A DNA stretch of 64,000 nucleotides. Origin: Buttiauxella massiliensis. GTDB taxonomy: Bacteria; Pseudomonadota; Gammaproteobacteria; Enterobacterales; Enterobacteriaceae. Positions 48-15,018 of the stretch are shown piece after piece. The stretch is taken from assembly GCF_902500225.1 (NCBI RefSeq), contig NZ_LR722649.1:248001-312000 (forward strand). The letters run 5' to 3'. A model generated the notes under the pieces. The model ran no database searches, had not been told where the DNA came from, and saw only the letters and a program-made list of their open reading frames with translations. How positions within the stretch are numbered: the stretch's first letter is position 1; each line of letters opens with the position of its first letter. The translations under genes were made by a program, and so were the position numbers.

Positions 48-553
48 TGAGTAAATCGATAAGTTCGACCGGCTTGCGCTGGCTGTGGCTTGTAGTGGTG
101 GTTCTGATTGTCGATCTGGGCAGCAAATACCTGATCCTCCAGCATTTCATGCTGGGGGACACCGTATCGCTGTTCCCGTCGCTGAATCTGCACTATGCCC
201 GCAATTACGGTGCCGCGTTTAGTTTCCTGGCGGATAAAGGGGGCTGGCAGCGCTGGTTCTTCGCGGGTATCGCTATCGGTATCTGCGTGATTTTGGCTGT
301 GTTGATGTATCGCGCCAAAGCAAGCCAGAAGCTGCATAACATCGCCTATGCTTTAATCATTGGCGGTGCACTCGGCAACCTGTTTGACCGTTTATGGCAC
401 GGCTTTGTGGTCGACATGATTGATTTCTATGTCGGCGACTGGCACTTCGCCACGTTTAACTTGGCTGATACGGCAATCTGTATCGGCGCGGCGCTGATTG
501 TGCTGGAGGGGTTCTTTGTCTCCTCCGACAAGCCCGCAAAAGAAAAAGGGTAA
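47..553 (+). CDS. lspA: Lipoprotein signal peptidase (signal peptidase II)
   Basis: This inner-membrane aspartyl protease removes the signal peptide from diacylglyceryl-prolipoproteins. The 168-residue length fits the family (about 164 in E. coli). Four hydrophobic segments are visible, near residues 12-31, 70-88, 99-113 and 139-156. The conserved NYGAAFS box begins at N53. The two expected catalytic aspartates are D123, in the stretch running from GNLFDRL to VVDMIDF, and D141, in FNLADTA. The ATG overlaps the ileS stop codon, so translation is probably coupled. fkpB follows after 3 nt. The product would process, for example, the lipoprotein encoded at 22091. Confidence 0.97.
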
Positions 554-556
554 CCC

Positions 557-1027
557 ATGGCTGAGTCTATCCAGGCCAATAGCAGAGTTTTGGTGCATTT
601 CACGCTGAAACTTGAAGATGGCTCCACTGCCGAGTCGACCCGCAATAACGGCAAACCGGCACTCTTCACGCTGGGTGACGAAACACTGTCGCCAGGCATG
701 GAAGACCAGCTAGTCGGCTTAAAAGCAGGGGACAAAAAAGCGTTCTCTCTGGCACCGGAATCCGCGTTTGGTATTCCAAGCCCGGACATGATCCAGTATT
801 TCTCGCGTCGTGAATTTATCGACGCGGGCGAGCCGGTTCCGGGTGCCATTATGCTGTTCACTGCAATGGATGGCAGCGAGATGCCAGGCGTTGTGCGTGA
901 AGTCAACGGTGATTCCATCACCGTTGACTTTAACCACCCACTCGCCGGGCAAACCATTCATTTTGATATCGAAGTACTGGAAATTGACCCGGTACTGGAG
1001 GCGTTGAATGCAGATCCTGTTGGCTAA
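557..1027 (+). CDS. fkpB: FKBP-type peptidyl-prolyl isomerase (SlpA)
   Basis: This is a cytoplasmic SlyD-like FKBP prolyl isomerase/chaperone. Residues 10-80 carry the N-terminal half of the FKBP fold ([12 protein letters not shown], with [23 protein letters not shown]). The inserted-flap domain follows ([17 protein letters not shown]), then the closing strand ([26 protein letters not shown]). The 156 residues are about 7 more than E. coli FkpB, because the reading frame continues past the usual end and overlaps the first 20 nt of ispH. Position between lspA and ispH is as in E. coli. Confidence 0.95.
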
Positions 1028-1958
1028 CCCACGCGGCTTTTGTGCCGGGGTCGACCGCGCTATCAGCATTGTTGAAAACGCGCTGGCGATTTACGGCGCA
1101 CCGATTTACGTCCGTCACGAAGTGGTGCATAACCGCTACGTGGTCGATAGCCTGCGCGAACGCGGGGCGATTTTCATCGAGCAAATCAGCGAAGTGCCAG
1201 ACGGCGCAATCCTGATTTTCTCCGCACACGGGGTTTCCCAGGCGGTGCGTAACGAAGCCAAAGGGCGTGATTTAACGGTGTTTGACGCAACGTGCCCGCT
1301 GGTTACCAAAGTGCATATGGAAGTGGCTCGCGCCAGCCGCCGTGGTGAAGAATCCATTCTGATTGGCCACGCAGGCCACCCGGAAGTGGAAGGCACCATG
1401 GGCCAGTACAGCAACCCGAAAGGCGGCATGTATCTGGTTGAATCACCGGAAGATGTCAGCAAGCTGGATGTGAAAAACGAAGCCAAACTGTCGTTTATGA
1501 CGCAGACCACGCTCTCTGTTGATGACACTTCTGACGTGATAGATGCGCTGCGTAAACGCTTCCCGAAAATCATTGGCCCGCGTAAAGACGACATTTGCTA
1601 CGCCACTACCAACCGTCAGGAAGCCGTGCGAGCACTGGCTGACGAAGCGGATGTGGTGCTGGTCGTTGGCTCGAAAAACTCGTCTAACTCCAACCGCCTG
1701 GCAGAACTCGCACAGCGCATGGGCAAATCCGCATATCTAATTGATGATGCGGCGGATATTCAGGAATCCTGGGTTAAAGATGCGGTTTGTGTTGGCGTTA
1801 CGGCAGGGGCGTCCGCACCAGATATTCTGGTGCAAAACGTTCTGGCTCGCCTGCGTGAACTCGGCGGCAGCGAAGCCCGCGAGCTAGTCGGGCGCGAAGA
1901 AAACATTGTTTTCGAAGTGCCGCGTGAGCTGCGAGTGGATGTTCGTGAAGTAGAGTAA
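1008..1958 (+). CDS. ispH: 4-hydroxy-3-methylbut-2-enyl diphosphate reductase
   Basis: IspH catalyses the last step of the MEP isoprenoid pathway, reducing HMBPP to IPP and DMAPP with a [4Fe-4S] cluster. The three cluster cysteines are at C12 ([10 protein letters not shown]), C96 (DATCPLVTK) and C197 ([10 protein letters not shown]). Substrate-binding residues H41, H74, H124, E126 and T167 also fall at the E. coli positions. The length of 316 equals that of E. coli. The start overlaps the 3' end of fkpB by 20 nt, which suggests translational coupling. A hairpin terminator follows at 1982-2018. Confidence 0.98.
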
Positions 1959-2030: not shown

Positions 2031-2948
2031 ATGAGTAGCACTCCAATCATTCTCGACACCGATCCTGGCATCGACGACGCCGTGGCGATTGCCGCTGCAC
2101 TTTTTGCCCCACAGCTTGATTTAAAACTGGTGACGACGGTCGCCGGAAACGTCAGCGTGGAGAAAACCACGCGCAACGCATTGCAGCTCATGCACTTCTG
2201 GCAGCGGGATATTCCGGTAGCGCAAGGTGCCGCCACACCGCTGGTACGCAAACTGCGCGATGCCGCGTATGTTCACGGTGAATCGGGCATGGAAGGTTAT
2301 GCCTTTGTTGAACACCAACGCCAGCCGCTGGATAAACCCGCGTTTCAGGCGATTTATGAATGTTTAAATGCCAGCGCAGAACCCGTCACGCTGGTGGCTA
2401 TCGGCCCCCTGACTAACATCGCGCTGCTGCTTACCCAATACCCGGATTGCAAAGCGAAGATCAAACGCCTGGTGATCATGGGCGGATCGGCAGGGCGGGG
2501 TAACTTCACGCCAAATGCGGAATTTAATCTCGCCATCGATCCGGAAGCGGGCGCTCGCGTATTTGAAAGCGGGCTGGAGATCGTGATGTGCGGCCTTGAT
2601 GTGACTAACCAGGCGGTACTTAGCCCGGAATATCTGGCAACGCTTTCTGAGCTCAACCAAACCGGGAAAATGCTGCATGCGTTGTTCAGCCACTACCGCA
2701 GCGGCAGCATGGCGACGGGCTTGAGAATGCACGATCTGTGCGCCATCGCGTGGCTGGTGAAACCTGAATTATTCCAGACTAAACACTGTTTTGTGGCGGT
2801 AGAAACCCACGGTGAATTTACCGCAGGCACTACGGTTGTTGACATCGAAGGGCGTTATCAGCGCGAGCCAAACGCGCATGTGGCGCTGGATCTCGACGTT
2901 GCGGGTTTCCAGAAATGGGTGGCGGAAGTCCTGGAGTTAGCCCCTTAA
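2031..2948 (+). CDS. rihC: Non-specific ribonucleoside hydrolase
   Basis: RihC hydrolyses the N-glycosidic bond of purine and pyrimidine ribonucleosides, giving ribose and free base for salvage. The Ca2+-binding signature DTDPGIDD is at residues 9-16. Other family blocks are [36 protein letters not shown] and [13 protein letters not shown] take the ATG at 2031 as the start because GGAGG (2021-2025) stands 5 nt upstream. An in-frame ATG at 2019 overlaps the terminator T tract and has no ribosome-binding site. The 305 residues compare with 304 in E. coli. In E. coli dapB would come next; here the island begins. Confidence 0.95.
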
Positions 2949-2992
2949 ATATTAAACGCGACGCAGATCGACTTTCTTCGGCCTGATAATGA

Positions 2993-3008
2993 GGTTAATC
3001 GATTAACC
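2993..3008. promoter_or_regulatory. Operator 1 of the PTS/cupin regulon (perfect 16-bp palindrome)
   Basis: GGTTAATCGATTAACC is a perfect palindrome with the central CG typical of LacI-family operators. It lies 45 nt before the first cupin gene, just upstream of a TATGCT sequence (3013-3018) that could be a -10 box. Near-identical sites stand before the PTS operon (8814-8829) and before the regulator gene (8936-8951). Inference: the LacI-family protein encoded at 8984 binds all three. Confidence 0.8.
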
Positions 3009-3052
3009 TTGCTATGCTGATTAGGCAGTTCTCCTTGGGCCGGAGAAATAAA

Positions 3053-3616
3053 ATGAATGTACCTGTCATCGTGCCACCGGGTATGGCATTCCTTAACGGC
3101 CATTTCACGGCTGAAAATATCATTACCAAAACTACACGCAGCGGCGATCTGGTCGGCGTGTTCCAGGACGACGCCGCATGGCGAGCATTACCCGCCGACA
3201 CGCCAATTTATCAGGTTGAAATGCTGCAATCTCCACAGGGAGAAGGCGAGCTTTTTGTCGGCACTACGCATCTCAATCCGGGGCGCGTGGGTGATGAGTT
3301 TTATATGACTCGCGGCCATTTCCATCAGCGGCGCGAGCAGGGAGAAGTCTATTTTGGCCTGCGCGGCAGCGGATTGTTGCTGCTGCAAAGCGAACAGGGC
3401 GAAGCGCGGCTTGAGCAAGTGTCGCCAGGTTCAGTGCATATTATTCCCGGCAATACCGCGCACCGCTTGATCAACACCGGTTCGGAGGTGCTTTCAGCAC
3501 TTGCCGTCTGGCCGACGATCGCCGGGCATGATTACGCTTCTCTGGCGCAAGGTTTTAAACGACGCGTCTTTTTGCTGGAAGGGAAAATTCAGGCGAAGGA
3601 GGTGCAAAATGGCTGA
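3053..3616 (+). CDS. Cupin-type (archaeal-type) glucose-6-phosphate isomerase
   Basis: The protein belongs to the cupin phosphoglucose isomerase family, which interconverts glucose 6-phosphate and fructose 6-phosphate and is unrelated to enteric Pgi. All four metal ligands known from the Pyrococcus enzyme are present: H89 and H91 in GHFHQ, E98 in GEVYFGLRG, and H137 in IPGNTAHRL. The start at 3053 is chosen over an upstream in-frame ATG at 3014, because a GGAG motif (3042-3045) precedes it and the family starts with the PPG-containing strand. Length is then 187 residues. The gene overlaps the next cupin gene by 8 nt. The true substrate may be another hexose phosphate. Confidence 0.85.
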   Translation: MNVPVIVPPGMAFLNGHFTAENIITKTTRSGDLVGVFQDDAAWRALPADTPIYQVEMLQSPQGEGELFVGTTHLNPGRVGDEFYMTRGHFHQRREQGEVYFGLRGSGLLLLQSEQGEARLEQVSPGSVHIIPGNTAHRLINTGSEVLSALAVWPTIAGHDYASLAQGFKRRVFLLEGKIQAKEVQNG

Positions 3617-4391
3617 GCCACTCCTCAATTATGGGTTGGATATGCAGGTCCATCACCAGCCAATGGGCTTTAGCTACGGCGAAGAGGTAATTGGGCCGGT
3701 GCCGGAGATCCGTAAACTCGAACAGATCCGTGCTTCATTGCGTGATCCTTTGTGCCAGGGGCCGGAAGATGTTTACGCGATCGTCATGGATGTTGCTCGA
3801 TTGCAGGACAGGGAAGAACTTAAAAAACGGATGTTACTGTTTGGCGTGGTGACTTACGCTTCCGGGCGGTTGGGCGATGAACCTGTCCGCAGCCAGGGGC
3901 ATATTCATCGAATTAGTGCGCATAGTGGCTGGTCGCCGCCAGAGCTATATGAAATCTGGCAGGGCAAAGCGATTATTTACATGCAGGAATATGTTGCCGA
4001 CGATCCCGGCCACTGCTTTGCAATCGTGGCCGGGCCTGGCGAAAAAGTGCTGGTGCCGCCGGGTTGGGCGCATGCCACTATCTCTGCATCACCTGATGAA
4101 CCACTGACGTTTGGTGCCTGGTGCGACCGGGAATATGGATTTGAATACGAAGCTGTGCGGGCATACAAAGGGCTGGCGTGGTATCCACTATTGCAGGATG
4201 AGCATATTGCCTGGCAGCATAACCGTCGCTATATGCCGGGGCGTTTGCAGGTGACTTCACCGCGCAGCTATACCGAATTTGGAATTACCGATGAGCCGCT
4301 ATATCAACAATTTATTGATGATCCCGCGCGTTTTCAGTTTATTTCAAAACCAGGAATGGTGGGGCCGAAGTGGGTGGGTTTCCACCCTTAA
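3609..4391 (+). CDS. Second cupin sugar-phosphate isomerase of the glucose-6-phosphate isomerase family
   Basis: This 260-residue cupin protein shows the same active-site pattern as its upstream neighbour: H98 and H100 in GHIH, E112 in PPELYEIWQGK, and H155 in VPPGWAHAT. It is longer, with a C-terminal extension of about 70 residues (from about 190) not found in the 187-residue protein. Its ATG overlaps the end of the first cupin gene by 8 nt, so the two are probably co-translated and may form one complex or act in sequence. Assignment as an aldose/ketose-phosphate isomerase rests on family; the substrate is unknown. The REP/terminator region at 4396-4477 separates it from the convergent PTS operon. 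Confidence 0.8.
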   Translation: MAEPLLNYGLDMQVHHQPMGFSYGEEVIGPVPEIRKLEQIRASLRDPLCQGPEDVYAIVMDVARLQDREELKKRMLLFGVVTYASGRLGDEPVRSQGHIHRISAHSGWSPPELYEIWQGKAIIYMQEYVADDPGHCFAIVAGPGEKVLVPPGWAHATISASPDEPLTFGAWCDREYGFEYEAVRAYKGLAWYPLLQDEHIAWQHNRRYMPGRLQVTSPRSYTEFGITDEPLYQQFIDDPARFQFISKPGMVGPKWVGFHP

Positions 4392-4395
4392 AAGG

Positions 4396-4477
4396 GTCGG
4401 ATGACGCTCACGTTAATCCGACCTACGGGCTTGGTGTTGTACGGTGGATAAGCGTTAGCGTCATCCACCGTTTTTTT
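4396..4477. repeat. REP pair (BIME-like) that includes a terminator
   Basis: Two imperfect REP-like palindromes face each other. The first is GTCGGATGACGCT...AATCCGAC (4396-4421). The second is GGTGGATAAGCG...CGTCATCCACC (4443-4469), followed by seven T. It lies between two convergent operons. The second palindrome plus its T run would terminate the cupin operon on the plus strand. Related elements occur at 41049-41119 and 53304-53330. Confidence 0.7.
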
Positions 4478-5291
4478 AAGAGAACAACCCCACCGCTACG
4501 CCTACTGCCGCTAACACTAATAACAGCAACATCGCTTTCACCGGTGACACGCCGCGTTTTGCCATCAAATACCAGGTACCAATCACCACTAACAGCGGCA
4601 ACAGGTTCGGGAAAATTCCATCCAACATTTGTTGCACATGGATATTCACACCATCTTTGGTGACAAACTCCAGTCCGGTGCCAAGCTTCACGTAACTTGC
4701 CGCCACGCCGCCCATCACAAATACGCCGAGCAACGATAGCGCTTCACGCAGGCGAGTCGATTTGCTGCTCACCAGCATCTCAACGGACGTCGACCCCATG
4801 CGGTAGCCTTTCAGGAACAGGAACCACGAGCCAGGAATGATAATTGCCAGCCATGCTACACAGTAAAATAGCGGCCCTAGAACATTCCCTCCCGCCGCCA
4901 GCGCCATACCGATACTCAGCAGAATCGGGATTAACATCCCCGGAATCATTGAATCGCCAATCCCAGCCACCGGCCCCATCAGTCCCACTTTCAGCGTGTT
5001 GATAGTTTCGCCGTCGATGGGCTCACCGTTGGCGCGTTTCTCCTCAAGACCCAGCACCATGCCATTGACTATCGCACCCAACTGCGGCTCGGTGTTATAG
5101 AATGACGCGTGGCGTTTGAGCATCTCTTTGCGTTGTTCATCATCGGGATAGAGCTTTTTCGCCACCGGCAACATACTCAAACAAAAGCCGAATGACTCCA
5201 GGCGCTCAAAGCTCATTGAGGAGAGGTTGTACATCATCCAACTACGCCAGCAACGGCGCAGATCCTGGCGAGTGAGTTTACGTTCTTCCAT
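4476..5291 (-). CDS. PTS mannose/fructose/sorbose-family IID component
   Basis: EIID is one of two membrane subunits of mannose-class PTS permeases. This 271-residue protein opens with the family signature (LTRQDLRRCWRSWMMYN, then SFERLESFGFCLSMLPVAKKLYP). It contains the MGPVAGIGDSMIPG loop and ends in several membrane segments (about 185-270). Its start codon overlaps the stop of the IIC gene by 1 nt, so the two should be made in step. It is the last gene of the PTS operon, which reads regulator-distal to proximal as PMI-like, IIA, IIB, IIC, IID. Confidence 0.93.
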   Translation of the reverse strand: MEERKLTRQDLRRCWRSWMMYNLSSMSFERLESFGFCLSMLPVAKKLYPDDEQRKEMLKRHASFYNTEPQLGAIVNGMVLGLEEKRANGEPIDGETINTLKVGLMGPVAGIGDSMIPGMLIPILLSIGMALAAGGNVLGPLFYCVAWLAIIIPGSWFLFLKGYRMGSTSVEMLVSSKSTRLREALSLLGVFVMGGVAASYVKLGTGLEFVTKDGVNIHVQQMLDGIFPNLLPLLVVIGTWYLMAKRGVSPVKAMLLLLVLAAVGVAVGLFS

Positions 5292-6088
5292 CAGAATTCA
5301 TCCTCATCATCAGCGGGCGTGGAGGCTGCACGTTCAGCCTGTGGCTCAGGTTTGTAGTTGTAGTGAATCAGTGCCAGTAACGCGCCGACAATCACCAGCG
5401 CCACCATATTTAGCTTCAGGAAAACAATGCAGATAAACCCCACCAGGAAGTAAATCAACATGCTGTAATTCTTGATGATTTGTTTAAGCAGAATGGCGAT
5501 ACCGACAGCTGGCAGAATCCCGCCCAGCACGTTCATGGTGGAAAGAACGATGTGTGGCAGGCTGTCCATAAAGGCATTGATGTACTGCGCGCCGAAATAG
5601 ACTGCGATAAACGTCGGAATAAAACGCATCAGGAAGTTGGTGGCTTGCGGCCAGATTGCGCTGTTGAGATACACGCCGCGCTCGTCGCCCTTTTCCAGCG
5701 CGATATCCGCACGGTGGTTCCACCAGGAATTGAGCACCATCATGGCGTTGAATAACACGGTGCCGGCAATGCCGATAGTGGCAGCTAACGCTACAGCCAC
5801 TTCCGGGCCTTTATTGGAAAGAATGCCCAATGCAATGGCCGGGAAGGCCACAAAGTTGAGATCCGCAGGCATAGAACCACCGGGGGTTACCATGGCGATA
5901 TACACGGCTTGAACCGCCACGCCGATGATAATCCCGGTTTGCACATCGCCGAGAATAAAACCTACCAGCATCCCTGAAACCAGTGGGCGGGTAATCAGAT
6001 ACCAGCCGCCGGTCAACCCCAGCAGCCATGGGCTACTAAGCGCACCGAGGTAACAGAGAATGCCGATTAGAGCTGCTTCGAAAGCCAT
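5291..6088 (-). CDS. PTS mannose/fructose/sorbose-family IIC component
   Basis: EIIC forms the sugar translocation channel together with EIID. The 265 residues are mostly hydrophobic, with family blocks GGWYLITRPLVSGMLVGFILGD, VQAVYIAMVTPGGSMPADLN and NVLGGILPAVGIAILLKQI. The C-terminus is an acidic, cytoplasmic-looking tail (PADDEDEF). Its stop overlaps the IID start. The gene starts 11 nt after the IIB stop. The sugar transported cannot be read from the sequence; the family covers mannose, fructose, sorbose, N-acetylgalactosamine and Amadori compounds. Confidence 0.93.
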   Translation of the reverse strand: MAFEAALIGILCYLGALSSPWLLGLTGGWYLITRPLVSGMLVGFILGDVQTGIIIGVAVQAVYIAMVTPGGSMPADLNFVAFPAIALGILSNKGPEVAVALAATIGIAGTVLFNAMMVLNSWWNHRADIALEKGDERGVYLNSAIWPQATNFLMRFIPTFIAVYFGAQYINAFMDSLPHIVLSTMNVLGGILPAVGIAILLKQIIKNYSMLIYFLVGFICIVFLKLNMVALVIVGALLALIHYNYKPEPQAERAASTPADDEDEF

Positions 6089-6099
6089 AATGCACTCCT

Positions 6100-6594
6100 T
6101 TATTTGAGTTTTTGTCGAGCATCTTGCCAGCTGTAACTGCTGGCATCGGGTACCAGTCGAAATTCAATCTGGTGCCCGCGCAGCGAGAGATAGTCGAACG
6201 CCGCTATCTCTTCCGGATTCACAGACTGATTCGGGCCAATGGTGGTGGTAGTGGCTCGTGCGCTCATCGGGCCAACGTTGATTTTCTTATTGCTGTTTTG
6301 CAGGCTGATTCCCGCTTCTTCAATGCGTTTTAGCGTCACCGGAGATTTACCAATCACGAAATAATGCTTCTCACTGGCGATGATCTTCGGCAGTTTTTCA
6401 ATCGCGGTGGCGGTATCAAATAACCAGACTTTGGTATCCTGCACCGCACCTTTCATCACCGAAGACAACAACGGATCGGCGGCGACAGCGTCATCAATGG
6501 CGATGATCCCATCGCACGGCAACTCTTTTGCCCAGCGGGTGATCAACTGGCCGTGGATCACCCGATCGTCAATGCGTACAAAAGAAATACTCAT
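6100..6594 (-). CDS. PTS mannose/fructose/sorbose-family IIB component
   Basis: This 164-residue cytoplasmic phosphotransfer protein receives phosphate from EIIA and passes it to the incoming sugar. The phosphorylated histidine is H14 in the signature RIDDRVIHGQ. The family block INVGPMSAR is at about 115-125. It is a stand-alone domain, not fused to IIA as in E. coli ManX. It starts 9 nt after the IIA stop and is followed by IIC after 11 nt. Confidence 0.93.
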   Translation of the reverse strand: MSISFVRIDDRVIHGQLITRWAKELPCDGIIAIDDAVAADPLLSSVMKGAVQDTKVWLFDTATAIEKLPKIIASEKHYFVIGKSPVTLKRIEEAGISLQNSNKKINVGPMSARATTTTIGPNQSVNPEEIAAFDYLSLRGHQIEFRLVPDASSYSWQDARQKLK

Positions 6595-6603
6595 CGTTGC
6601 CCC

Positions 6604-7032
6604 TTAGAAATCATCAGATTGTGTGGTTTCAGCCAGTTGGGCCTGAACCAGTGAGTCACGCGATTCTTCCAGTAAAACCGCTGCCGCTTGGGCTACATCG
6701 GTCAGATCTTTTATTTCATCGCTCAGCAATAGCATCGGGAAATTAACACCTCCCAACACTGCCATTGGCGGCTGCGTTTGCGGATCGAACGCATGGTGGC
6801 AGGCAATATTCCAAGGCGTGCCGCTTTGCAAATCGCACAGCACCAGCACGCCATCAGCATCTTTGGCGGCCTGTTTCAGCACCGCAGCAAACTCATCACC
6901 AAAACTATTGATGCCCTTGTTCTCCGTTAGCATCACCGGGAATACATGCGGTAATTCGCCATAAACCATTTTGCTACCGGCCAGTAGTGCTTCGGCAAGC
7001 AAGCCATGTGTTGCCAGAATTACGTTGATCAT
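6604..7032 (-). CDS. PTS mannose/fructose/sorbose-family IIA component
   Basis: This 142-residue EIIA-Man-type protein accepts phosphate from HPr. The predicted phosphohistidine is H9 in ILATHGLLAEALL. The block VLVLCDLQSGTPWNIA, including the conserved D-x-x-GTP, forms the active-site edge. Only 4 nt separate it from the upstream 582-residue isomerase-like gene, so the order is isomerase-IIA-IIB-IIC-IID in a single transcript. Confidence 0.93.
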   Translation of the reverse strand: MINVILATHGLLAEALLAGSKMVYGELPHVFPVMLTENKGINSFGDEFAAVLKQAAKDADGVLVLCDLQSGTPWNIACHHAFDPQTQPPMAVLGGVNFPMLLLSDEIKDLTDVAQAAAVLLEESRDSLVQAQLAETTQSDDF

Positions 7033-7036
7033 CTTG

Positions 7037-8785
7037 TTATCCTCTTACCCAGGCTTTCATGGTGGCGAGCTGTTGACCTACACCGCTACCGTATGGGGAA
7101 ATGCGATATTCGCCGACCGCCGCCGGAACAATGAAGGTTTCGGCGTAATGCACCACAAAGGGTTCGAATGCGCCGCTCGGGCTTTCAACCAGCGCTTCAC
7201 TGCCTTCCACCAGATTCAGTACGTTTACGCCACCATGAGTGTGGTGCGTGACAGGTTGCGTAAACCAATGGCGGCGGGTTTCGATAAACTCACGTTCATG
7301 TAGACCCGTACGTTCTTCGCACCAGCCATCACCTTCCGCGATAGGCTCGAAATGATTCACCAGATGCTCGGTGACCCATTGCGTATCACGTTTCCAGTCA
7401 ATCACTTGTGCACCGTGTTCAAGATGCACCGGACGTGGCAGACCATCCAGACCGAGGCGGCCCCAGTCCCACAATTTGAAGGTGAAAATAAACGGCGTGG
7501 CGCTGATCTCCAGTACCATTGCACCGGATCCAGAGCAGTGAACAGTGCCTGCCGGGATCAGGAAGTGATCGTGTTTACGTGCCGGGAAACGGTTAACGAA
7601 TTTCTCATCATCAAACGCTTTTTCGCCCCGCTGCGCACACGCAAGATCGTCGAGCATTTCCTGTGGATTGATGCCTGTTTTGGTCCCCAGATACACTTGC
7701 GCACCAGGCTCGGCTTCCAGCATGTAATAGCTCTCATCCTGGGTGTAATGCATGCCGAAATGCTGCTGGATGTATTCGGTAATCGGGTGAACCTGGAAGC
7801 TTAAATTCTGCCCGCCGATGGTATCGAGGAAGTCGAAGCGGATCGGGAATTCCGCACCAAAACGGGCATGAACACGCTCGCCAAGCAGCGGGCGAGGGTA
7901 GAGCAACACCAGATCCTGAGAGGGGATCTCGATCCGCTCATCACCAAAACGCAGTAACAGGCTGTTCTCCTCGGGCACACAGTCAAAACACCATGCGTAA
8001 TTTGGCTTTGAGGGATCGAGATCGAATTTGTCTTTCATCCATTGCCCGCCCCAGACTCCTGGGTCGAAGAATGGCACTACGCGGAACGGTTGTTGCGTGG
8101 TTTGTTGGAGCGCATGGCGCAGCGCATCGCCGCTCACCATCGCCGGTTGTTCAGGGTTATTGGTGTCGAGCAAGAAATCCGCACGCTTGAGAAGCGGCGT
8201 TTTATGGCGGTCAAACACGCGCCATTCAATGAAGAAAGCGCGTTTGTAGCGGCGCAGAATATCTTCGCTCTCGTTGTTCGCACCCCAGTTACCCAGTTCG
8301 CCACGGCGAAAACGCTGCTGGATTTCCCAACGGGCGAGGTCGGCATAAACCAGCACATCACCTTCGTGAACCAGCGCCGCGCCTGGGCCGTAAACCACCA
8401 CCAGGCCGTGCGTGGTTTCAGCGACTTCTTGTTGCAACGCCGCCAGTTTTACCGCGCAGAAGAACTCGTTTAACTCATGACAGGAAAGCACGCCAAACAC
8501 GCGGTCGTCCGTCAGGTTGTGGGCCAGCAAATCATGCAGATGTTGCTCGCTCAACCGCGCAGATTCGGCGTTAATCACCCGTGCGGGATTGAGATGGCTA
8601 ATGAGTTGCGAATGCAGTTCGTCGAGCTGAACGCCGGGGTAGCAATCAATCACCAGCACGGTTTTACCCGCGTGCGATAGCTTCTCGCTGACAGCCTGTT
8701 TTATGGCAGGCCATCCACGCCATGCCTGATGGTCAAACCCCGCGACTTTGACTTCGGGATACTTGTCGTAAGATGCCGGATGCAT
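7037..8785 (-). CDS. Type I phosphomannose isomerase-like protein with extra N-terminal domain
   Basis: The C-terminal part (about 235-582) is a class I mannose-6-phosphate isomerase cupin. Its metal ligands are Q331 and H333 (LSFQVHP), E351 (DESYYMLE) and H416 (IPAGTVHC). The first 230 or so residues are not part of ManA. They contain a hydrophobic strand after a degenerate P-loop-like segment (HAGKTVLVIDCYPGV, 38-52), YGPGAAL, and an RRY/RWEIQQRF basic helix. They resemble a nucleoside-kinase-like fold without an intact Walker A, which is a tentative reading. It is the first gene of the PTS operon, with AGGGAG before its ATG and the operator at 8814-8829 close upstream. Probable role: isomerising the sugar 6-phosphate delivered by the PTS. 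Confidence 0.8.
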   Translation of the reverse strand: MHPASYDKYPEVKVAGFDHQAWRGWPAIKQAVSEKLSHAGKTVLVIDCYPGVQLDELHSQLISHLNPARVINAESARLSEQHLHDLLAHNLTDDRVFGVLSCHELNEFFCAVKLAALQQEVAETTHGLVVVYGPGAALVHEGDVLVYADLARWEIQQRFRRGELGNWGANNESEDILRRYKRAFFIEWRVFDRHKTPLLKRADFLLDTNNPEQPAMVSGDALRHALQQTTQQPFRVVPFFDPGVWGGQWMKDKFDLDPSKPNYAWCFDCVPEENSLLLRFGDERIEIPSQDLVLLYPRPLLGERVHARFGAEFPIRFDFLDTIGGQNLSFQVHPITEYIQQHFGMHYTQDESYYMLEAEPGAQVYLGTKTGINPQEMLDDLACAQRGEKAFDDEKFVNRFPARKHDHFLIPAGTVHCSGSGAMVLEISATPFIFTFKLWDWGRLGLDGLPRPVHLEHGAQVIDWKRDTQWVTEHLVNHFEPIAEGDGWCEERTGLHEREFIETRRHWFTQPVTHHTHGGVNVLNLVEGSEALVESPSGAFEPFVVHYAETFIVPAAVGEYRISPYGSGVGQQLATMKAWVRG

Positions 8786-8813
8786 AGTATTCTCCCTGTT
8801 TTCGATAAATTAA

Positions 8814-8829
8814 GATTAATCGATTAACC
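8814..8829. promoter_or_regulatory. Operator 2 of the PTS/cupin regulon
   Basis: GATTAATCGATTAACC differs from the perfect palindrome at 2993-3008 at one position only. It lies 28 nt upstream of the first gene of the PTS operon (minus strand), where a repressor would block that promoter. Confidence 0.78.
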
Positions 8830-8900
8830 CATTTTGAACAGAGTGGTAAACGCGATTAACCCGCAATTTTTGGCAAGGAGTTGCCATAAGTTGAGTTATC

Positions 8901-8916
8901 TGTGATGGGTTTCACA
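8901..8916. promoter_or_regulatory. CRP-cAMP binding site
   Basis: TGTGATGGGTTTCACA has both consensus CRP half-sites (TGTGA and TCACA) at the canonical 6-bp spacing. It lies in the 198-nt divergent region between the PTS operon and the regulator gene, and between operators 2 and 3. Inference: catabolite control of the PTS operon and perhaps of the regulator. Confidence 0.8.
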
Positions 8917-8935
8917 TGGGAGTATGCAATTTTTT

Positions 8936-8951
8936 GGTTATTCGATTAATC
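8936..8951. promoter_or_regulatory. Operator 3 of the PTS/cupin regulon (autoregulatory)
   Basis: GGTTATTCGATTAATC matches the perfect operator at 14 of 16 positions and keeps the CGATTAA core. It ends 32 nt before the ATG of the LacI-family gene at 8984, so the regulator probably represses itself. Confidence 0.7.
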
Positions 8952-8983
8952 TGTATGAAATCGCTAAATTTTGAGGAGTGCCA

Positions 8984-10000
8984 ATGAGCACTGTTACCCT
9001 GGCCCAGGTTGCAAAACAGGCCGAAGTTTCAACGGCTACCGTTTCCATGGTATTGCGCAATCGAGGGCGAATTTCTGATGCCACCCGCCAGCGAGTGCTG
9101 AAAGCGCTGGACGATCTCGGCTACGTTTATAATCAGACGGCGGCCAATTTACGCAACCGCACCAGCAACCAGGTGGGCTTGTTGCTTCACGATATTACCA
9201 ACCCGTTTTACGGTGAAATGACCGCCGGATTGAGCCAGGAAATGGAGCGCCACGACTTGCTGTTGTTCCTGGCAAACAGTGAAGAATCCGGCGAGCGTCA
9301 GCAAAAATTCGTTGATTCGCTGATGCGCAATAACGCCTGCGGCATGGTGCTGTGCGCGGCGCGGGAAACGCCGCCGCTGTTTTTTGAAACCCTCAAGCGG
9401 CGCAATATCCCGGCGATTATGGTGGTGCGCCCGATGGACGATGTGGATTTTGATTTCGTCGGCACCGATAACTTCCTCGGTACGCAACTGGCGACGCAAC
9501 ACTTGCTGCGCCTGGGCCATAAGCACATCGCATTTATTGGCGGCAGTGAAAATTCGATCAGCCGCGCCCAGCGCATCGGCGGCTACAGCAGTAAATTGCT
9601 TGAGCATCGTATTCAGCCGAACAGCGAATGGGTGGTTTCCTCCCTCGCCAGCCAGAGTGATGGCGCGCGCGTGGCGGAAGAGTTGTTCAGGCAGTATCCG
9701 GAAATCACCGCTGCGGTTTGTTATCAGGATATTGTGGCGTTGGGCGTGATGCAGACGCTGCGTAAAATGGGACGCCAGCCGGGCGTGGATTTTGCGCTGG
9801 TGGGGTTTGACGATATTACTGAAGCGTCGTTGGTGCAGCCCGCGCTGACCACCGTTTCGGTGGCCGCGAAAGAGATTGGCCGCAAGGCCGGGGAGTTATT
9901 GTTTAGCCGCATTCAGGGCAATGACGAACCGCCAAAACGCATTATTCTCCCGCCAACTTTAGTCGTGCGGGAGTCATGCGGTTTTGGTTTGTTACGGTGA
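8984..10000 (+). CDS. LacI-family transcriptional regulator of the PTS/cupin genes
   Basis: The 338-residue protein has a LacI helix-turn-helix and hinge at the N-terminus (TLAQVAKQAEVSTATVSMVLRN, about 4-25), then a hinge helix region (TAANLRNRTSNQVG). A periplasmic-binding-protein-like effector domain follows (LLLHDITNPFYGEM, FVGTDNFLGTQLATQHLLRLGHKHIAFIGG, LVGFDDITEASLVQPALTTVS). I use the ATG at 8984, with GAGGAG 5 nt upstream; a GTG at 8978 overlaps that site. Three shared palindromes (2993, 8814, 8936) make it the likely repressor of both cupin and PTS operons. Its stop overlaps the convergent symporter gene by 9 nt. Confidence 0.9.
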   Translation: MSTVTLAQVAKQAEVSTATVSMVLRNRGRISDATRQRVLKALDDLGYVYNQTAANLRNRTSNQVGLLLHDITNPFYGEMTAGLSQEMERHDLLLFLANSEESGERQQKFVDSLMRNNACGMVLCAARETPPLFFETLKRRNIPAIMVVRPMDDVDFDFVGTDNFLGTQLATQHLLRLGHKHIAFIGGSENSISRAQRIGGYSSKLLEHRIQPNSEWVVSSLASQSDGARVAEELFRQYPEITAAVCYQDIVALGVMQTLRKMGRQPGVDFALVGFDDITEASLVQPALTTVSVAAKEIGRKAGELLFSRIQGNDEPPKRIILPPTLVVRESCGFGLLR

Positions 10001-11534
10001 TTCTGGCGTTAGGCTAGCCGGGGTTTTGCGCCCTGGCGTGTTGCCCCAGACTTTGTCGTATTCGTAGCCTGTCAGGTCTTTAATCACTTTGCGGGTTTCC
10101 ATATCGCAGTCTGCGAGATCCCCGCCCAGTTTCAGACGTGCCACTTCTTTAATCAGCGTTTTGTGGGATTCGCGGGTCAGTTTGAATTTGAACGTCATCC
10201 AGAAGCTGATGGACAGCAAAGCCGCAGTGGCAAAGACCATCAGCCCAACAATGGCGTGTAACGCTTCGATAGGTTGCTCGCCCTGGCCTTTAACAAAGCC
10301 GCTTTCTTCCAGCACCACGCCAATCAACATAATCGCCAGTGCCACGGTGCTTTTCCGGGTTAATACCATCACGCCAGCAAAGATTCCTTCACGACGTTTT
10401 TTGGTGACGATTTCGTCAACATCAGGAATAAAGCTGTAAATATTCCATGGGATAAAATAGAGCCCGGCACGTGAAAAACCCAATACCACAAAGACGGCGG
10501 AGAATAATACGACCGAGACATTGATATTGTTGATATAAGCATAAAACAAGAAAGCTAATACGGCGAAAATACAACTATAAGATAACCGCAGCGCCCCCGA
10601 TGGCGTGAAGTTTAATTTGCTCAGTAACATCATGAATACGAATGTTCCCGGAACAGAAACAAAAGCCGCCACGATTAAATAACCTGAAACGGCAGCTGCA
10701 TCCTGATGTAAACCGTAAACCACATAATAGGTAAATACCGAGCCGAAAACGTCCATCGCGGTAAACGACGCAATATAGATAATAATATGCTGACGGAACA
10801 TTTTAATTTTAAATGAGGACAGCAGATCTAATACCAGGCTTTTTAAGTGGTGCCAAAGATTGCCACTATTGGCACCTTCCGGTTCGGGTTCAAACTCTTC
10901 GCGCACATCTTTCGCCTCCCAGGTACACATCCAGGTGGTGAACACCGCAATGCAAAAAATAGCCGAGAACAACAGGCCGGTGTAGGTGTACGTCATCGGG
11001 TTATCTTTGCCGGTGAACTGCATAATCACGCCCGGCACCGACACCGCAAGAAAGCCGCCAAGCTGCGAACAAATCATGCGCACGCCAGATAATTTGGCGC
11101 GTTCGCTGTAGCGGTTGGTCATTTCGGCGGCCAGTGTTTCCCAGGGAACCAGCACCATTGCCGAGAGCAATTCGATAGAAAGATAGGTGCCGAGATAATA
11201 CCAGTAGCCCATATCCGTGACCCACAACATGGCGTACAAAAACATCAGTGGGGCGCTGAGTAATAAGAAGAAACGACGGCGGCCGAAACGTCTGCCCAGC
11301 CAGGTGTTGGCGAAGTTATCGGTGATATAACCCATAATCGGGCTTAATACCGCATCAATAACTCGTGCAATAGCAAATATCGAACCGGCTTCTAATACCG
11401 ATAATCCGCAAGAAGTGGTGTAGAAAAATAACAGCCAGGTGCCAATAATGGCAAATTCCCCACCGCCAAATAAATCGGTGACACCATAATCCTATGGCTG
11501 TTCCGTAGCCAACTCTGCGTTCAGTAGGTTTCAT
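9992..11534 (-). pseudogene. GPH-family (MelB-like) sugar:cation symporter, frameshifted near its start
   Basis: The protein is a major-facilitator-type glycoside-pentoside-hexuronide symporter with about 12 membrane segments (for example LLSAPLMFLYAMLWVT, LLSAMVLVPWETLAAEM, VVLFSAVFVVLGFSRAG). The ATG at 11534, with AAAGGA upstream, begins MKPTERRVGYGTAIG. After that codon the frame needs a shift of one base: around 11488-11493 the minus strand reads ATAGGATTATGG, where ATA-GGN-TAT-GGT would keep the frame. The correct frame (GVTDLFGGGEFAIIGTW...) then runs unbroken to 9992. Without the shift, translation from 11534 goes out of frame after about 15 codons. From 11335 a 447-residue piece remains, lacking the first membrane helices. 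It is either a recent inactivation or a one-base sequence error. Confidence 0.75.
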
Positions 11535-11581
11535 ATTATTCCTTTCTTTTTATATGTAGGATGAAAAGGAAATCGATTATT

Positions 11582-12598
11582 TTAAATATCTATCCAGTCT
11601 CTGGTAATAGAAGATTGATAAATGGCCTCAACCATACGCAATGAAATTTCAGCCTGATGAATATCGACGTAATGACGGTTATTGGGGCTTTCTAAAGAAT
11701 GATAAAAATTATGAATCGCCTGCTGGTGGCTGCTTCCCCAATAACACTTTTGAGCTGCGTCCGGTAATTCGTCACTGGCGAGTAACTCTTTATGTTCTCC
11801 GGCAATTACCCACAAATGATTGTGATGCAGTTGTAGCAGGCCACGTTCACAATGGATTTCCAGCAGTAGCGGTGAGTCCGTGGTATTGCAGTTGGTGGCG
11901 TAGAAAATCCCCCGCGCGCCGTTGGCTAATTCCATATTGGCGATAGCGGTGTCTTCAGCTTCCGTTGCAGCACTTAAAAAGCTGCTTTCCACTACGCCTT
12001 TGAGCGCGTTCACGCCACCGGCAAACCACTGCATTAAATCCAGCGTATGAATCGCCTGATTGATTAACAGGCTGCCGCCTTCGGTGGCAAAACGCCCGCG
12101 CCACGGGCTTTGCGCGTAATAGTCGTGAGGGCGGTTCCAGGTTAGTACCGCTTTGATGCTCAACACTTTTCCGTATGCGTTCGACTCCAGCAGAGCTTTA
12201 ATCTTCTGGCTGCTCGGGTTCAGGCGGTTTTGATAACAGACGCCGAGCTGAGTGGTTGCGCTCGCCAGCGCGTTTTTAATCTCCTTCACTTCACCGGGAT
12301 TGAGCGCCACTGGCTTTTCCGTAAACACGTGTTTCCCGGCGGCGAGGGCGGCAATAATCATCTCTTTGTGGGCGAAATGCGGGGTGCAAATATGCACCAC
12401 ATCAATCTCGGCATCGCATAACATTTCCCGGTAATCGGCGTAATAACGGCAGCCGTACCGTTCGGCAAGTGCGTGGCCTTTTACTGAATCTGTATCGACA
12501 ATGGCCCATAGCTGGCAGGCTGGATTCGCTTGAATGGCCTCGACGTGCAAGGTGTGGATCGCTCCACACCCGACGACCGCGGCCTGTGTCGTCTTCAT
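11582..12598 (-). CDS. Gfo/Idh/MocA-family NAD(P)-dependent oxidoreductase (first of three)
   Basis: The N-terminal Rossmann fold starts with AAVVGCGAIHTLHVEAI, the Gfo/Idh/MocA dinucleotide site. The catalytic-lysine motif is TEKPVALN, and the substrate-domain helix is LINQAIHTLDLMQW, with the usual His and Asp. Length is 338 residues from the ATG at 12598. Further upstream in-frame starts would overlap the preceding gene and lie before the Rossmann strand. The gene follows the second dehydrogenase by 2 nt and precedes the symporter gene by 47 nt. Such enzymes oxidise sugars, sugar acids, glycosides or inositols; the substrate here is unknown. Confidence 0.88.
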   Translation of the reverse strand: MKTTQAAVVGCGAIHTLHVEAIQANPACQLWAIVDTDSVKGHALAERYGCRYYADYREMLCDAEIDVVHICTPHFAHKEMIIAALAAGKHVFTEKPVALNPGEVKEIKNALASATTQLGVCYQNRLNPSSQKIKALLESNAYGKVLSIKAVLTWNRPHDYYAQSPWRGRFATEGGSLLINQAIHTLDLMQWFAGGVNALKGVVESSFLSAATEAEDTAIANMELANGARGIFYATNCNTTDSPLLLEIHCERGLLQLHHNHLWVIAGEHKELLASDELPDAAQKCYWGSSHQQAIHNFYHSLESPNNRHYVDIHQAEISLRMVEAIYQSSITRDWIDI

Positions 12599-12600
12599 CG

Positions 12601-13668
12601 TTATTGCACCCCGTTTGCCAGCATTTGCGCCCGCACGCACAGCTCGGCGGCTTTGAATGCGTGCGCCTGGGTCATCGCATTTTCGGTGCGGTTCAGGCAA
12701 TCCAGAATCAGCTCGCCAAAGAACGGGAAGCCCACTTTCCCGGCAACCGGATAGCGGAATTCGCCTTCTTTATTTACCAGATACACCACGTCCTGTTCGC
12801 CACGAGTGATATCAACATATTTACGGATTTCGATATAACCGTCGGTGCCGAGCAGCGTCAGACGCCCGTCGCCCCAACTACTCAGCCCGGTTGGTGTGAA
12901 CCAGTCGCAGCGGAAATAGCCGCTGGCACCGTTCTCGCCTTTGAGCATCGCATCGCCGAAATCTTCAAATTCTGGATATTGCAGATGGGCGAAGTTATTG
13001 GTTTGCGCCGCGACAACGTGCGCTTCGCTGTTGCCGGTGTAATACAGGAATTGTTCAATTTGATGGCTGCCGATATCACACAGGATGCCGCCAAAGCGCT
13101 TCTTAAAATAGAACCAGTCCGGGCGGCCTGTTCCTTCGCGGTGTGGCCCCATCCCCAGCGTTTGAATCACTCGCCCGATTGCGCCGTCACGCACCAGTTG
13201 CCCGGCAAAAACTGCACTTTCTACATGCAATCTTTCGCTGTAATAGACCGCATATTTGCGCCCGGTTACGGCGACTTTTGCTTTGGCCGCAGCCAGTTGT
13301 TCCAGTGTGGTCAGCGGCGCTTTATCGGTGAAATAGTCTTTCCCCGCATCCATGACTTTCAGGCCAAGTGCGCAACGTTCATCAGGAATCGCCGCTCCGG
13401 CAACCAGTTTGACGCTCTCATCTTGTAGAATCGCGTCAAGCGATGGTGCGACTTTTGCCTGCGGGTATTGCTTAAGAAATTGTTCGATTTTCTGCGGATC
13501 GGGGTCGTAAACCCATTTCAGCGTCGCACCCGCTTCAATCAGGCCGTTGCACATGCCATAGATATGACCGTGATCGAGTGCGGCGGCGGCAAACACAAAA
13601 TCACCCGGCTGCACCACCGGCTGTGGTTTGCCTTTTGGCGCGTAATTCATCCCGTCTTTGATGCTCAT
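12601..13668 (-). CDS. Gfo/Idh/MocA-family oxidoreductase with atypical motifs (second of three)
   Basis: This 355-residue Gfo/Idh/MocA-type protein has about 20 extra residues before the Rossmann strand (FVFAAAALDHGHIYGMCNGL). The usual glycine-rich GxGxxG is replaced by AALDHGH. The EKP motif reads TDKAPL (Lys kept, Glu changed to Asp). The substrate-domain helix reads CDIGSHQIEQFLYY, with Glu where Asp is common. These differences mark a distinct subfamily, possibly with another cofactor handling or substrate. It lies 2 nt from both neighbours and is surely in the same transcript. Confidence 0.82.
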   Translation of the reverse strand: MSIKDGMNYAPKGKPQPVVQPGDFVFAAAALDHGHIYGMCNGLIEAGATLKWVYDPDPQKIEQFLKQYPQAKVAPSLDAILQDESVKLVAGAAIPDERCALGLKVMDAGKDYFTDKAPLTTLEQLAAAKAKVAVTGRKYAVYYSERLHVESAVFAGQLVRDGAIGRVIQTLGMGPHREGTGRPDWFYFKKRFGGILCDIGSHQIEQFLYYTGNSEAHVVAAQTNNFAHLQYPEFEDFGDAMLKGENGASGYFRCDWFTPTGLSSWGDGRLTLLGTDGYIEIRKYVDITRGEQDVVYLVNKEGEFRYPVAGKVGFPFFGELILDCLNRTENAMTQAHAFKAAELCVRAQMLANGVQ

Positions 13669-13670
13669 GT

Positions 13671-14816
13671 TTATGCCCCTTTATCCATATCTTTGCCTAA
13701 TGGGATTGCGTCTTCGTTGGCGAAGTTTTCCACCGAGGCCGATTTTTCAAAGAAATGCGGTGCCATTTTCACTAAGCCGCCGGTCTGGTAATACGGGTCG
13801 CTTGCGCTAATTGGCAGCGAAACAATGCTGCGGGTGATGGCTGATTTATAGATTGCGGTGATGAGTTCCAGCGAACGTTTACCTTGCGGGCCATCAACTA
13901 ACGGCGCGGTGCCGGTTTGCAGCGCGTGCAGGAAGTTGTCGATTTGCCCGGTGTGCAGCGTCCAGTTCAGGCGCGGGATAGTCTGGTAGCTATCTTCAAG
14001 CTGGTTTTCCAGCGAGGTATCGCGGGCTTCTATCGGGAAACCATTGGGTGCGGCGATGCTGGCGAATTTATCCCACGGTGCAGAAATACGGGCTTTCTCT
14101 CCCTGAATAACAATCTTCTGATCTTCACCGTGGTGCACGACGGAGGCGGTCAGTTGCGTCAATGCGCCTGTGTCATATTTGAAAATCGCGGCGCTGAGAT
14201 CTTCGACTTCGGCGTTGTCATGGGAAACGTTGGTGGTGATGGCGACCACTTCTGTCGGGAAGCCGAGCATCCACTGAATGGCGTCGATATGGTGCACCGC
14301 ATGGTTGAGCGTGCAGCCGCCGCCTTCTTTTTCCCAGGTACCGCGCCACCAGAATGAATCCACCTGCGCGTGGCAAATTTTGCCTATTTGGTTGCTTTCG
14401 AGCACTTTTTTCAAACGCCAGAAAGCATCGGTAAAGCGGTTCTGGGCGATGATCGACAGCGTTTTTCCGCTTGATTTAGCGGCGTTAATCATCGCATCGC
14501 ATTCCTGGAGTGAAGCCGCCATGGGCTTTTCACACAGCACATGTTTACCCGCATTGAGCGCATCAATAGAAATAGCCGCGTGAACATATGGCGGAGTGCA
14601 GATATCAAATACATCAATGGATGGGTCGTTAAGAATATCCTGATGGTTGCTGTAGATTTTGGCATTCACCAGCCCGTAATGCTTTTTCTTTTCTTCGGCT
14701 TTTTCAGGGTAGATATCAACAAGGGCGACAATCTGGCTGCGGTCAGGAAATTCAAGATAGCCCTGAATGTGATTGTGGGAAATATTACCGGTTCCGATAA
14801 TAGCGATTCTTTGCAT
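13671..14816 (-). CDS. Gfo/Idh/MocA-family oxidoreductase (third, promoter-proximal)
   Basis: The 381-residue protein starts with the dinucleotide-binding strand and loop RIAIIGTGNISHNHIQGYLEF. It carries the lysine motif CEKPMAAS and the substrate helix LNHAVHHIDAIQWMLG. A C-terminal tail of about 40 residues (from about 340) goes beyond the first dehydrogenase. It is the first gene of a minus-strand operon (three dehydrogenases, then the symporter) that diverges from the LacI-family gene at 15019. Family membership is clear; the substrate is not. Confidence 0.88.
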   Translation of the reverse strand: MQRIAIIGTGNISHNHIQGYLEFPDRSQIVALVDIYPEKAEEKKKHYGLVNAKIYSNHQDILNDPSIDVFDICTPPYVHAAISIDALNAGKHVLCEKPMAASLQECDAMINAAKSSGKTLSIIAQNRFTDAFWRLKKVLESNQIGKICHAQVDSFWWRGTWEKEGGGCTLNHAVHHIDAIQWMLGFPTEVVAITTNVSHDNAEVEDLSAAIFKYDTGALTQLTASVVHHGEDQKIVIQGEKARISAPWDKFASIAAPNGFPIEARDTSLENQLEDSYQTIPRLNWTLHTGQIDNFLHALQTGTAPLVDGPQGKRSLELITAIYKSAITRSIVSLPISASDPYYQTGGLVKMAPHFFEKSASVENFANEDAIPLGKDMDKGA

Positions 14817-14925
14817 TGGGCTCTCACTTATAGTGAAAATATTCAGTAATAATCATTTTTTGAGAGCATAGTTATGGTTTTTTTTGCACGCAACCGCTAT
14901 TTATGACAGGAATTGCACGGCATAA

Positions 14926-14946
14926 ATAATGCCGTGGTGATGAAAC
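14926..14946. promoter_or_regulatory. Inverted repeat in the divergent promoter region, candidate operator
   Basis: CACGGCAT and ATGCCGTG form perfect 8-bp arms around AAATA. The site lies between the dehydrogenase operon (start 14816) and the LacI-family gene (start 15019). It differs from the palindrome of the first half of the island, so it is a candidate site for the second regulator. The odd-length spacer is less typical of LacI-family operators. Confidence 0.45.
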
Positions 14947-15018
14947 GAAAATGCTTGTGACGAGAAATAGTTAGTCATGAAAATAATCTCAAAACGCTAA
15001 TGAGGCATCGAACACAAA

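Follow-up and report, generated by a model that had tools for sequence, protein, structure and literature searches.

Introduction

Several described systems for the use of mannose and mannosides resemble, each in part, the gene cluster presented here. Besides the ManXYZ-ManA-Pgi route of Escherichia coli, these include the regulon of the GntR-type regulator ManR of Bacteroides thetaiotaomicron, which, in the accessible part of its description (PMC3878776), comprises mannose uptake, conversion to fructose-6-phosphate and alpha-mannosidases, and the regulons for mannose or mannosides under LacI-family ManR proteins, for which the accessible part of PMC4052901 gives five orthologous groups. The cluster occupies positions 3053-8785 of a stretch of 64,000 nucleotides (hereafter the window) from the 4.88-Mb genome of Buttiauxella massiliensis, and encodes two PF06560 cupins homologous to phosphoglucose isomerases (PGIs), here named cPGI1 and cPGI2, a complete mannose-family EIIABCD of the phosphotransferase system (PTS), and a 582-aa protein resembling type I phosphomannose isomerases (PMIs), hereafter the PMI-like protein. 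This gene set is real, conserved and apparently co-regulated, and it probably serves the catabolism of mannose or a mannoside under LacI control, with mannose-6-phosphate as the intermediate.

Results

A survey of 394 Enterobacterales genomes (in the GTDB sense, with the Aeromonas and Vibrio relatives) found the PMI-like protein in 12 genomes and PF06560 in 12, ten of which are shared, and, as judged by coordinates, the two genes are neighbours in all ten. Fisher's test gives p 3e-18 for this co-occurrence when the marginal genomes G057 and G079 are excluded, as their PF06560 matches reach only E 9.8e-4 and 5.3e-4. Two genomes with the PMI-like protein, G217 and G220, have no PF06560 match, and G306, one of the four genomes of the window's own or same genus, has no PMI-like protein. 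A megablast of positions 2900-9000 against 20,395 E. coli records returned no match in a mode that needs about 85% identity and would miss other enteric copies; a record titled E. coli (L029) carries a copy of the PMI-like protein at 77%. Among the matches listed, the nearest named one belongs to Buttiauxella izardii (95%), and the record titles extend the family from enteric bacteria to Bacteroidota, Bacillota, Spirochaetes and Verrucomicrobia.

The two cupin genes, on the plus strand, are oriented towards an operon of the minus strand in the order PMI-like, EIIA, EIIB, EIIC and EIID, beyond which lies a divergent LacI-family gene. All four PTS subunits exceed the cut-offs of their Pfam models (PF03610, PF03830, PF03609 and PF03613), and the set is complete. 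Within the 64-kb window the palindrome TTAATCGATTAA occurs exactly upstream of both operons and with one mismatch upstream of the regulator gene (Table 1), and the remainder contains two unrelated sites with two mismatches. A LacI homologue adjoins the PMI-like gene in most enteric loci, and a scan of 35 gamma-proteobacterial loci, allowing up to two mismatches, found a site of this type in all 34 testable gaps between the LacI and PMI-like genes and in 22 of 23 regions upstream of cPGI1; L048 is the sole miss, and L041 and L046, with cPGI1 on the opposite strand, stand outside the latter count. All scanned loci together contain 115 such sites in 724,842 bases. Because these sites recur in the window, in the gaps and upstream of cPGI1, a single LacI regulon spanning the cupins and the PMI-like/PTS operon is a well-supported prediction. 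Scans for promoters and terminators showed no excess over shuffled sequences.

In order to learn which sugar is handled, the neighbours of the PMI-like gene were compared in 80 loci, the best of at least 588 PMI-like matches as ranked by similarity to the PMI-like protein; a gene is called absent when BLAST finds no match up to 9 kb away in the retrieved flanking sequence, and some of these flanks are short. GH38 glycosidases were found in 21 of the 80 loci, a count that leaves aside a GH38 gene of L030 beyond the 9 kb, and all eight that were scanned (L028, L034, L042, L043, L063, L067, L073 and L074) were confirmed by Pfam or NCBIfam. GH2 matches occur in six loci; that of L083 has mannosidase Ig domains, and the others may not be mannosidases. 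The phosphorylating step is a PTS only in 32 loci, an ROK kinase only in 27, both in one and neither in 20, the ROK gene of the sole locus with both being a 24% match 5 kb away. Next to the PMI-like gene, a PTS and an ROK kinase tend to be alternatives.

As a control, 20 neighbourhoods of canonical ManA were taken from genomes with the PMI-like gene, one of which (L146) was the same cluster and was dropped, leaving 19 of 31 such genomes, three with ManA stretches shortened by contig ends. Across these 19 genomes, GH38 lies beside the PMI-like gene in ten and beside canonical ManA in two (L128 and L133; p 0.013), and ROK beside the PMI-like gene in nine and beside canonical ManA in none (p 0.001). 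Operators of the type described above also precede, in L028 (Enterobacter kpr-6), L030 (Superficieibacter) and L034 (Enterobacter ENT03), a mannoside-PTS-like gene followed by a GH38 gene. The best model for the former is the mannosylglycerate PTS PRK09765 (427, 445 and 170 bits, respectively), and for the GH38 of L028 and L034 the mannosylglycerate hydrolase PRK09819 (632 and 655 bits); the L030 GH38, cut by the locus end, is a BLAST match only. MngB releases mannose-6-phosphate. The company of mannosidases, ROK kinases and mannoside-PTS-like genes points to mannose-6-phosphate, and since relatives of the PMI-like gene often adjoin mannose-releasing enzymes, the cluster most likely handles mannose.

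Among 198 Bacteroidales genomes, 27 encode the PMI-like protein, 17 at 52% or above (the query genome included) and ten at 36-41%. BLAST detected GntR genes in five and GH38 in three of 13 Bacteroidales regions, and Pfam detected GH92 in L113, L116 and L117 and GH38 in L115 and L119, with ROK or MFS genes in some of the regions; no cupin was found in any of the 13.

The preliminary description of this DNA had taken three isomerases as a sign of an unusual sugar phosphate that needs more than one rearrangement. On such a reading, an unusual hexose would enter as its 6-phosphate and be converted stepwise by the three proteins to fructose-6-phosphate. The PMI-like protein and both cupins do stand together in 33 of the 80 loci, and the host genome encodes elsewhere a Pgi, a ManA and a second Man-family EIID, because of which a plain mannose route looks redundant. 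In L052, L053, L077 and L087 the PMI-like gene has a canonical ManA gene no more than 9 kb away, and the two proteins may do different work there. A gene of the N-acetylglucosamine (GlcNAc) 2-epimerase family in L041, a 45% relative of that gene in L046, and the non-canonical active site of the PMI-like protein, described below, agree with an unusual substrate; so do the three separate ROK kinases that were scanned, all below the cut-offs, which have their highest scores as glucokinase, although allose kinase scores nearly as high in L083. However, 39 of the 80 loci have neither cupin within 9 kb (seven have cPGI1 alone and one cPGI2 alone), the same holds for seven of the 33 PTS loci, and the Bacteroidales regions have none, while the adjoining glycosidases are largely GH38. 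As both cupins are missing nearby from those 39 loci, they look dispensable, and their absence near seven PTS genes marks them as probably accessory. The proposal of an exotic sugar keeps some weight, given the matching functions owned by the host and the altered active site, but it is weakened by the loci without cupins and by the mannosidases, ROK kinases and mannoside-PTS-like genes, and we regard it as unlikely. A literature search found no paper on such a gene set, in support of the claim that the system is undescribed. The exotic-sugar argument is weak.

The PMI-like protein has no match in Pfam or NCBIfam at 0.001, and no PMI model is among its Pfam matches up to E 10, the canonical ManA of L052 matching PF20511 and PF21621. 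Its PDB match is ManA of Bacillus subtilis (1qwr; Table 1), and its AlphaFold model (pLDDT 92) finds solved mannose-6-phosphate isomerases as best Foldseek matches, with TMt 0.81-0.82 and E 1.4e-24 and 1.1e-23 to 1qwr. The metal ligands of type I PMIs are Gln, His, Glu and His after BaM6PI, for which the accessible part of PMC4718643 also proposes Lys116 as the residue that moves the C2 proton. With positions set by alignment to 1qwr and canonical ManAs, the ligands Q331, H333, E351 and H416, together with R443 of the last motif, are invariant in all 45 aligned PMI-like sequences, namely the window protein and 44 of the 80 loci (L058, L060, L072, L079 and L093 were left out), all 45 sharing at least 56% identity with the protein of the window. 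The proposed catalytic lysine, two residues before the Glu ligand, is replaced by Gln349, and a second lysine of 1qwr by Asp318, in 45 of 45 sequences, and both replacements recur in the six distant Bacteroidales members that were compared, among them fused proteins. Canonical ManAs of L052, L053, L077 and L087 have the first lysine in all four cases and the second in three (not in L053). Both lysines are missing from the alignment in the putative PMI 1zx5 of Archaeoglobus fulgidus; hence they are not universal in the PMI fold, and the standard mechanism can be neither assumed nor excluded for the PMI-like family.

At its N-terminus, the PMI-like protein has a well-conserved domain (window 8120-8785, minus strand) with no significant match in Pfam, and the best PDB profile match of this domain is at E 0.12, with NDUFA10 at 0.35. 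As these PDB profile matches are insignificant, a kinase-like fold of the domain is an impression only. In L118, a distant relative (4724-7387, plus strand, 887 aa), Pfam shows the PMI-like part joined to an ROK domain, and BLAST indicates such a fusion in L120 and L122; the L118 protein scores 37.7 bits against the manA model TIGR00218, the cut-off of which is 116.2.

These features leave room for a mannose-6-phosphate pathway in which the chemistry of the PMI-like protein differs from that of ManA, the protein being an anomerase, a C2 epimerase leading directly to glucose-6-phosphate, or a lysine-free isomerase. The exchange of two lysines with retention of the metal ligands and Arg443, the silence of the Pfam PMI models and the conserved extra domain are consistent with such a change, as are matches to canonical type I PMIs in 31 of the 35 genomes carrying the PMI-like gene, a count that includes weak matches and at least two rows that are the PMI-like proteins themselves. 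On the other hand, a search limited to type I PMIs found no canonical one in four of the 35, and the PMI-like protein could be their catabolic isomerase; the fusion to an ROK kinase suits a plain kinase-isomerase; and the lysines are also incomplete in 1zx5 and in the ManA of L053. We consider the altered chemistry somewhat doubtful, and retain a mannose-6-phosphate isomerase as the more probable identity.

Both cupins exceed the PF06560 cut-off of 20.7 bits. In cPGI1, which aligns to the PGI of Thermococcus litoralis, the residues H89, H91, E98 and H137, which we take to be the metal ligands, and H159 and Y161 of the GHDY motif are invariant in all 29 aligned sequences (the window and 28 of the 40 listed locus copies). 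Likewise, H99, H101, E113 and H156 of cPGI2 are invariant in 22 of 22 (the window and 21 of the 35 listed copies; numbering is one above that of the 260-aa protein), and its AlphaFold model (pLDDT 94) has the PGIs of Pyrococcus furiosus and T. litoralis as top Foldseek matches (TMt 0.74-0.77). The GHDY histidine, which contacts the substrate in cupin PGIs, is missing from cPGI2, where Phe179 (alignment numbering) gives G-F-x-Y rather than G-H-x-Y in all 22. A C-terminal extension of cPGI2 is also present in a third PF06560 protein, at 26% identity, of two other enteric genomes.

The start codon of cPGI2 sits 8 bases inside the 3' end of cPGI1, which suggests coupled translation. This overlap, the pairing of the cupins in 33 of the 41 loci with either, and the phenylalanine of cPGI2 would suit proteins that sense or modulate the pool of sugar phosphates rather than act as bulk catalysts, possibly as a cPGI1-cPGI2 complex. 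Such a role is nevertheless very unlikely, as cPGI1 retains its metal ligands throughout, along with both GHDY residues, His and Tyr, and PGIs are the best matches in sequence and fold; accessory PGIs remain the favoured identity of the pair.

The third PF06560 protein, of 280-288 aa, is encoded at 350-1192 (minus strand) of L125 and 504-1370 (plus strand) of L126, and scores much higher against the family model (258 and 252 bits). The gene of L125 comes after one that resembles, by eye, a glucose-type PTS gene, and is perhaps an independent pairing of a PTS with a cupin PGI. In L030 (14452-17154), EIID and the cupin pair are separated by two genes, one for a PTS EIIC and one for a GH1 glycosidase.

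The coordinates of all features are given in Table 1. The cluster is flanked by rihC on one side and, on the other, by a separate second cluster reaching dapB. This adjoining cluster (window 9992-16086) comprises a GPH/MFS_2 transporter, three Gfo/Idh-type oxidoreductases and another LacI gene, and it was found complete in only two of the named loci, L015 and L016, both from Buttiauxella. A frameshift suspected in the GPH transporter gene was rejected, as the frame continues to 11488.

Table 1. Features of the cluster and its operators, in window coordinates.
Feature	Position	Strand	Basis
LacI-type palindromic operator TTAATCGATTAA, 5' of the cupin pair	2995..3006		Exact match
cPGI1, cupin-type phosphoglucose isomerase homologue, 187 aa	3053..3616	+	PF06560, 80.4 bits; T. 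litoralis PGI 1j3p, 1.1e-38
cPGI2, longer cupin-PGI homologue, 260 aa	3609..4391	+	PF06560, 62.5 bits; AlphaFold and Foldseek
EIID, mannose-family PTS	4476..5291	-	PF03613, 304 bits
EIIC, mannose-family PTS	5291..6088	-	PF03609, 219.6 bits
EIIB, mannose-family PTS, motif RIDDRVIHGQ	6100..6594	-	PF03830, 127.2 bits
EIIA, mannose-family PTS, motif ATHG	6604..7032	-	PF03610, 56.5 bits
PMI-like (ManA-like) protein, 582 aa: N-terminal domain of unknown function and type I PMI fold	7037..8785	-	1qwr, 1.5e-12; AlphaFold/Foldseek
LacI-type operator, 5' of the PMI-like/PTS operon	8816..8827		TTAATCGATTAA, exact
LacI-type operator, 5' of the regulator gene	8938..8949		One mismatch to TTAATCGATTAA
LacI-family regulator, start at 8978 or 8984	8984..10000	+	PF00356, PF00532, PF13377

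Discussion

Much of the preliminary description holds: two cupin PGIs with all four metal ligands, a complete EIIABCD, a type I PMI-like protein with its fold and ligands, a shared predicted regulon, an overlap with the Pgi and ManA encoded elsewhere, and a cluster with no separate kinase, deglycase or aldolase gene; the conserved co-occurrence that it had proposed to look for was also found. We hypothesize that EIIABCD imports and phosphorylates the sugar to give mannose-6-phosphate, that the PMI-like protein would convert this to fructose-6-phosphate, and that the two accessory cupins most likely equilibrate fructose-6-phosphate with glucose-6-phosphate, so that the product would join central metabolism without an extra kinase or aldolase. 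The cluster would then be a separately regulated and patchily distributed duplicate of the ManXYZ-ManA-Pgi route, and not a route for an exotic hexose.

Several observations weigh against this assignment. The 80 loci, picked by similarity to the PMI-like protein, are not independent and enteric loci weigh heavily among them. The window's genome has no GH38, and GH38 is not exclusive to the PMI-like gene, since it occurs near canonical ManA in two of the 19 control genomes. The MngA/MngB-like matches do not reach the respective NCBIfam cut-offs of 763 and 1138 bits, and the MngA-like gene of L034 (6395-7339), directly followed by the GH38 gene, encodes just 314 aa, with the EIIA part and the late part of EIIC only. 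No EII subunit of the window reaches any NCBIfam cut-off, EIID scoring 188 bits against PRK11103 (PTS mannose transporter subunit IID), for which 365 is needed. The window's LacI protein lies 0.2 bits above the cut-off of the MalI-subfamily model NF007449 (310.2 against 310). The redundancy with host genes, the canonical ManA beside the PMI-like gene in four loci, the glucokinase-like scores of the ROK kinases and the loss of both lysines belong here too. Finally, the likeness to the B. thetaiotaomicron ManR (BT2103) regulon is no more than a resemblance.

A bolder proposal, which we find rather doubtful, is that the PMI-like protein founds a new class of enzyme, a PMI-fold metalloenzyme with an additional N-terminal domain (perhaps degenerate and kinase-like, by impression only) and an exchanged catalytic lysine, which would rearrange mannose-6-phosphate, or some other hexose phosphate, in a different way; a coupled cPGI1/cPGI2 would act with it, and the module would have been carried across phyla behind an interchangeable PTS or kinase entry. 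The PMI-like family is widespread, matches none of the Pfam models and lacks the proposed catalytic lysine, so its activity may be that of a lysine-free PMI or a different reaction, and knowledge of it would settle the annotation of a widespread and probably mannose-catabolic module.

Compared with the known systems, the cluster combines features of several. With the ManXYZ-ManA-Pgi route it would share a Man-family PTS giving mannose-6-phosphate, the type I PMI fold and a PGI activity downstream, the latter putative here; it differs in its LacI-type operators, in its separate EIIA and EIIB genes, in having a PMI paralogue without the proposed catalytic lysine and with an extra domain, and in PGIs of the cupin type instead of the Pgi type. 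Like the MngA/MngB system for 2-O-alpha-mannosylglycerate, the relatives in L028, L030 and L034 carry MngA/MngB-like genes behind the same operators, whereas their matches are sub-threshold and the window has no such genes, nor its genome a GH38. The cupins agree with the PGIs of P. furiosus and T. litoralis in fold and metal ligands, although cPGI2 is longer and lacks the GHDY histidine, and both belong to a predicted PTS regulon. As far as the accessible part of the description of the B. thetaiotaomicron ManR regulon goes, some Bacteroidales relatives of the PMI-like gene similarly adjoin GntR, alpha-mannosidase, kinase and transporter genes; that regulon has a kinase and a permease in place of the window's PTS, and a GntR in place of its LacI regulator. 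The LacI-family ManR regulons, within the accessible part of PMC4052901, resemble the cluster in placing the use of mannose or mannosides under LacI-family control.

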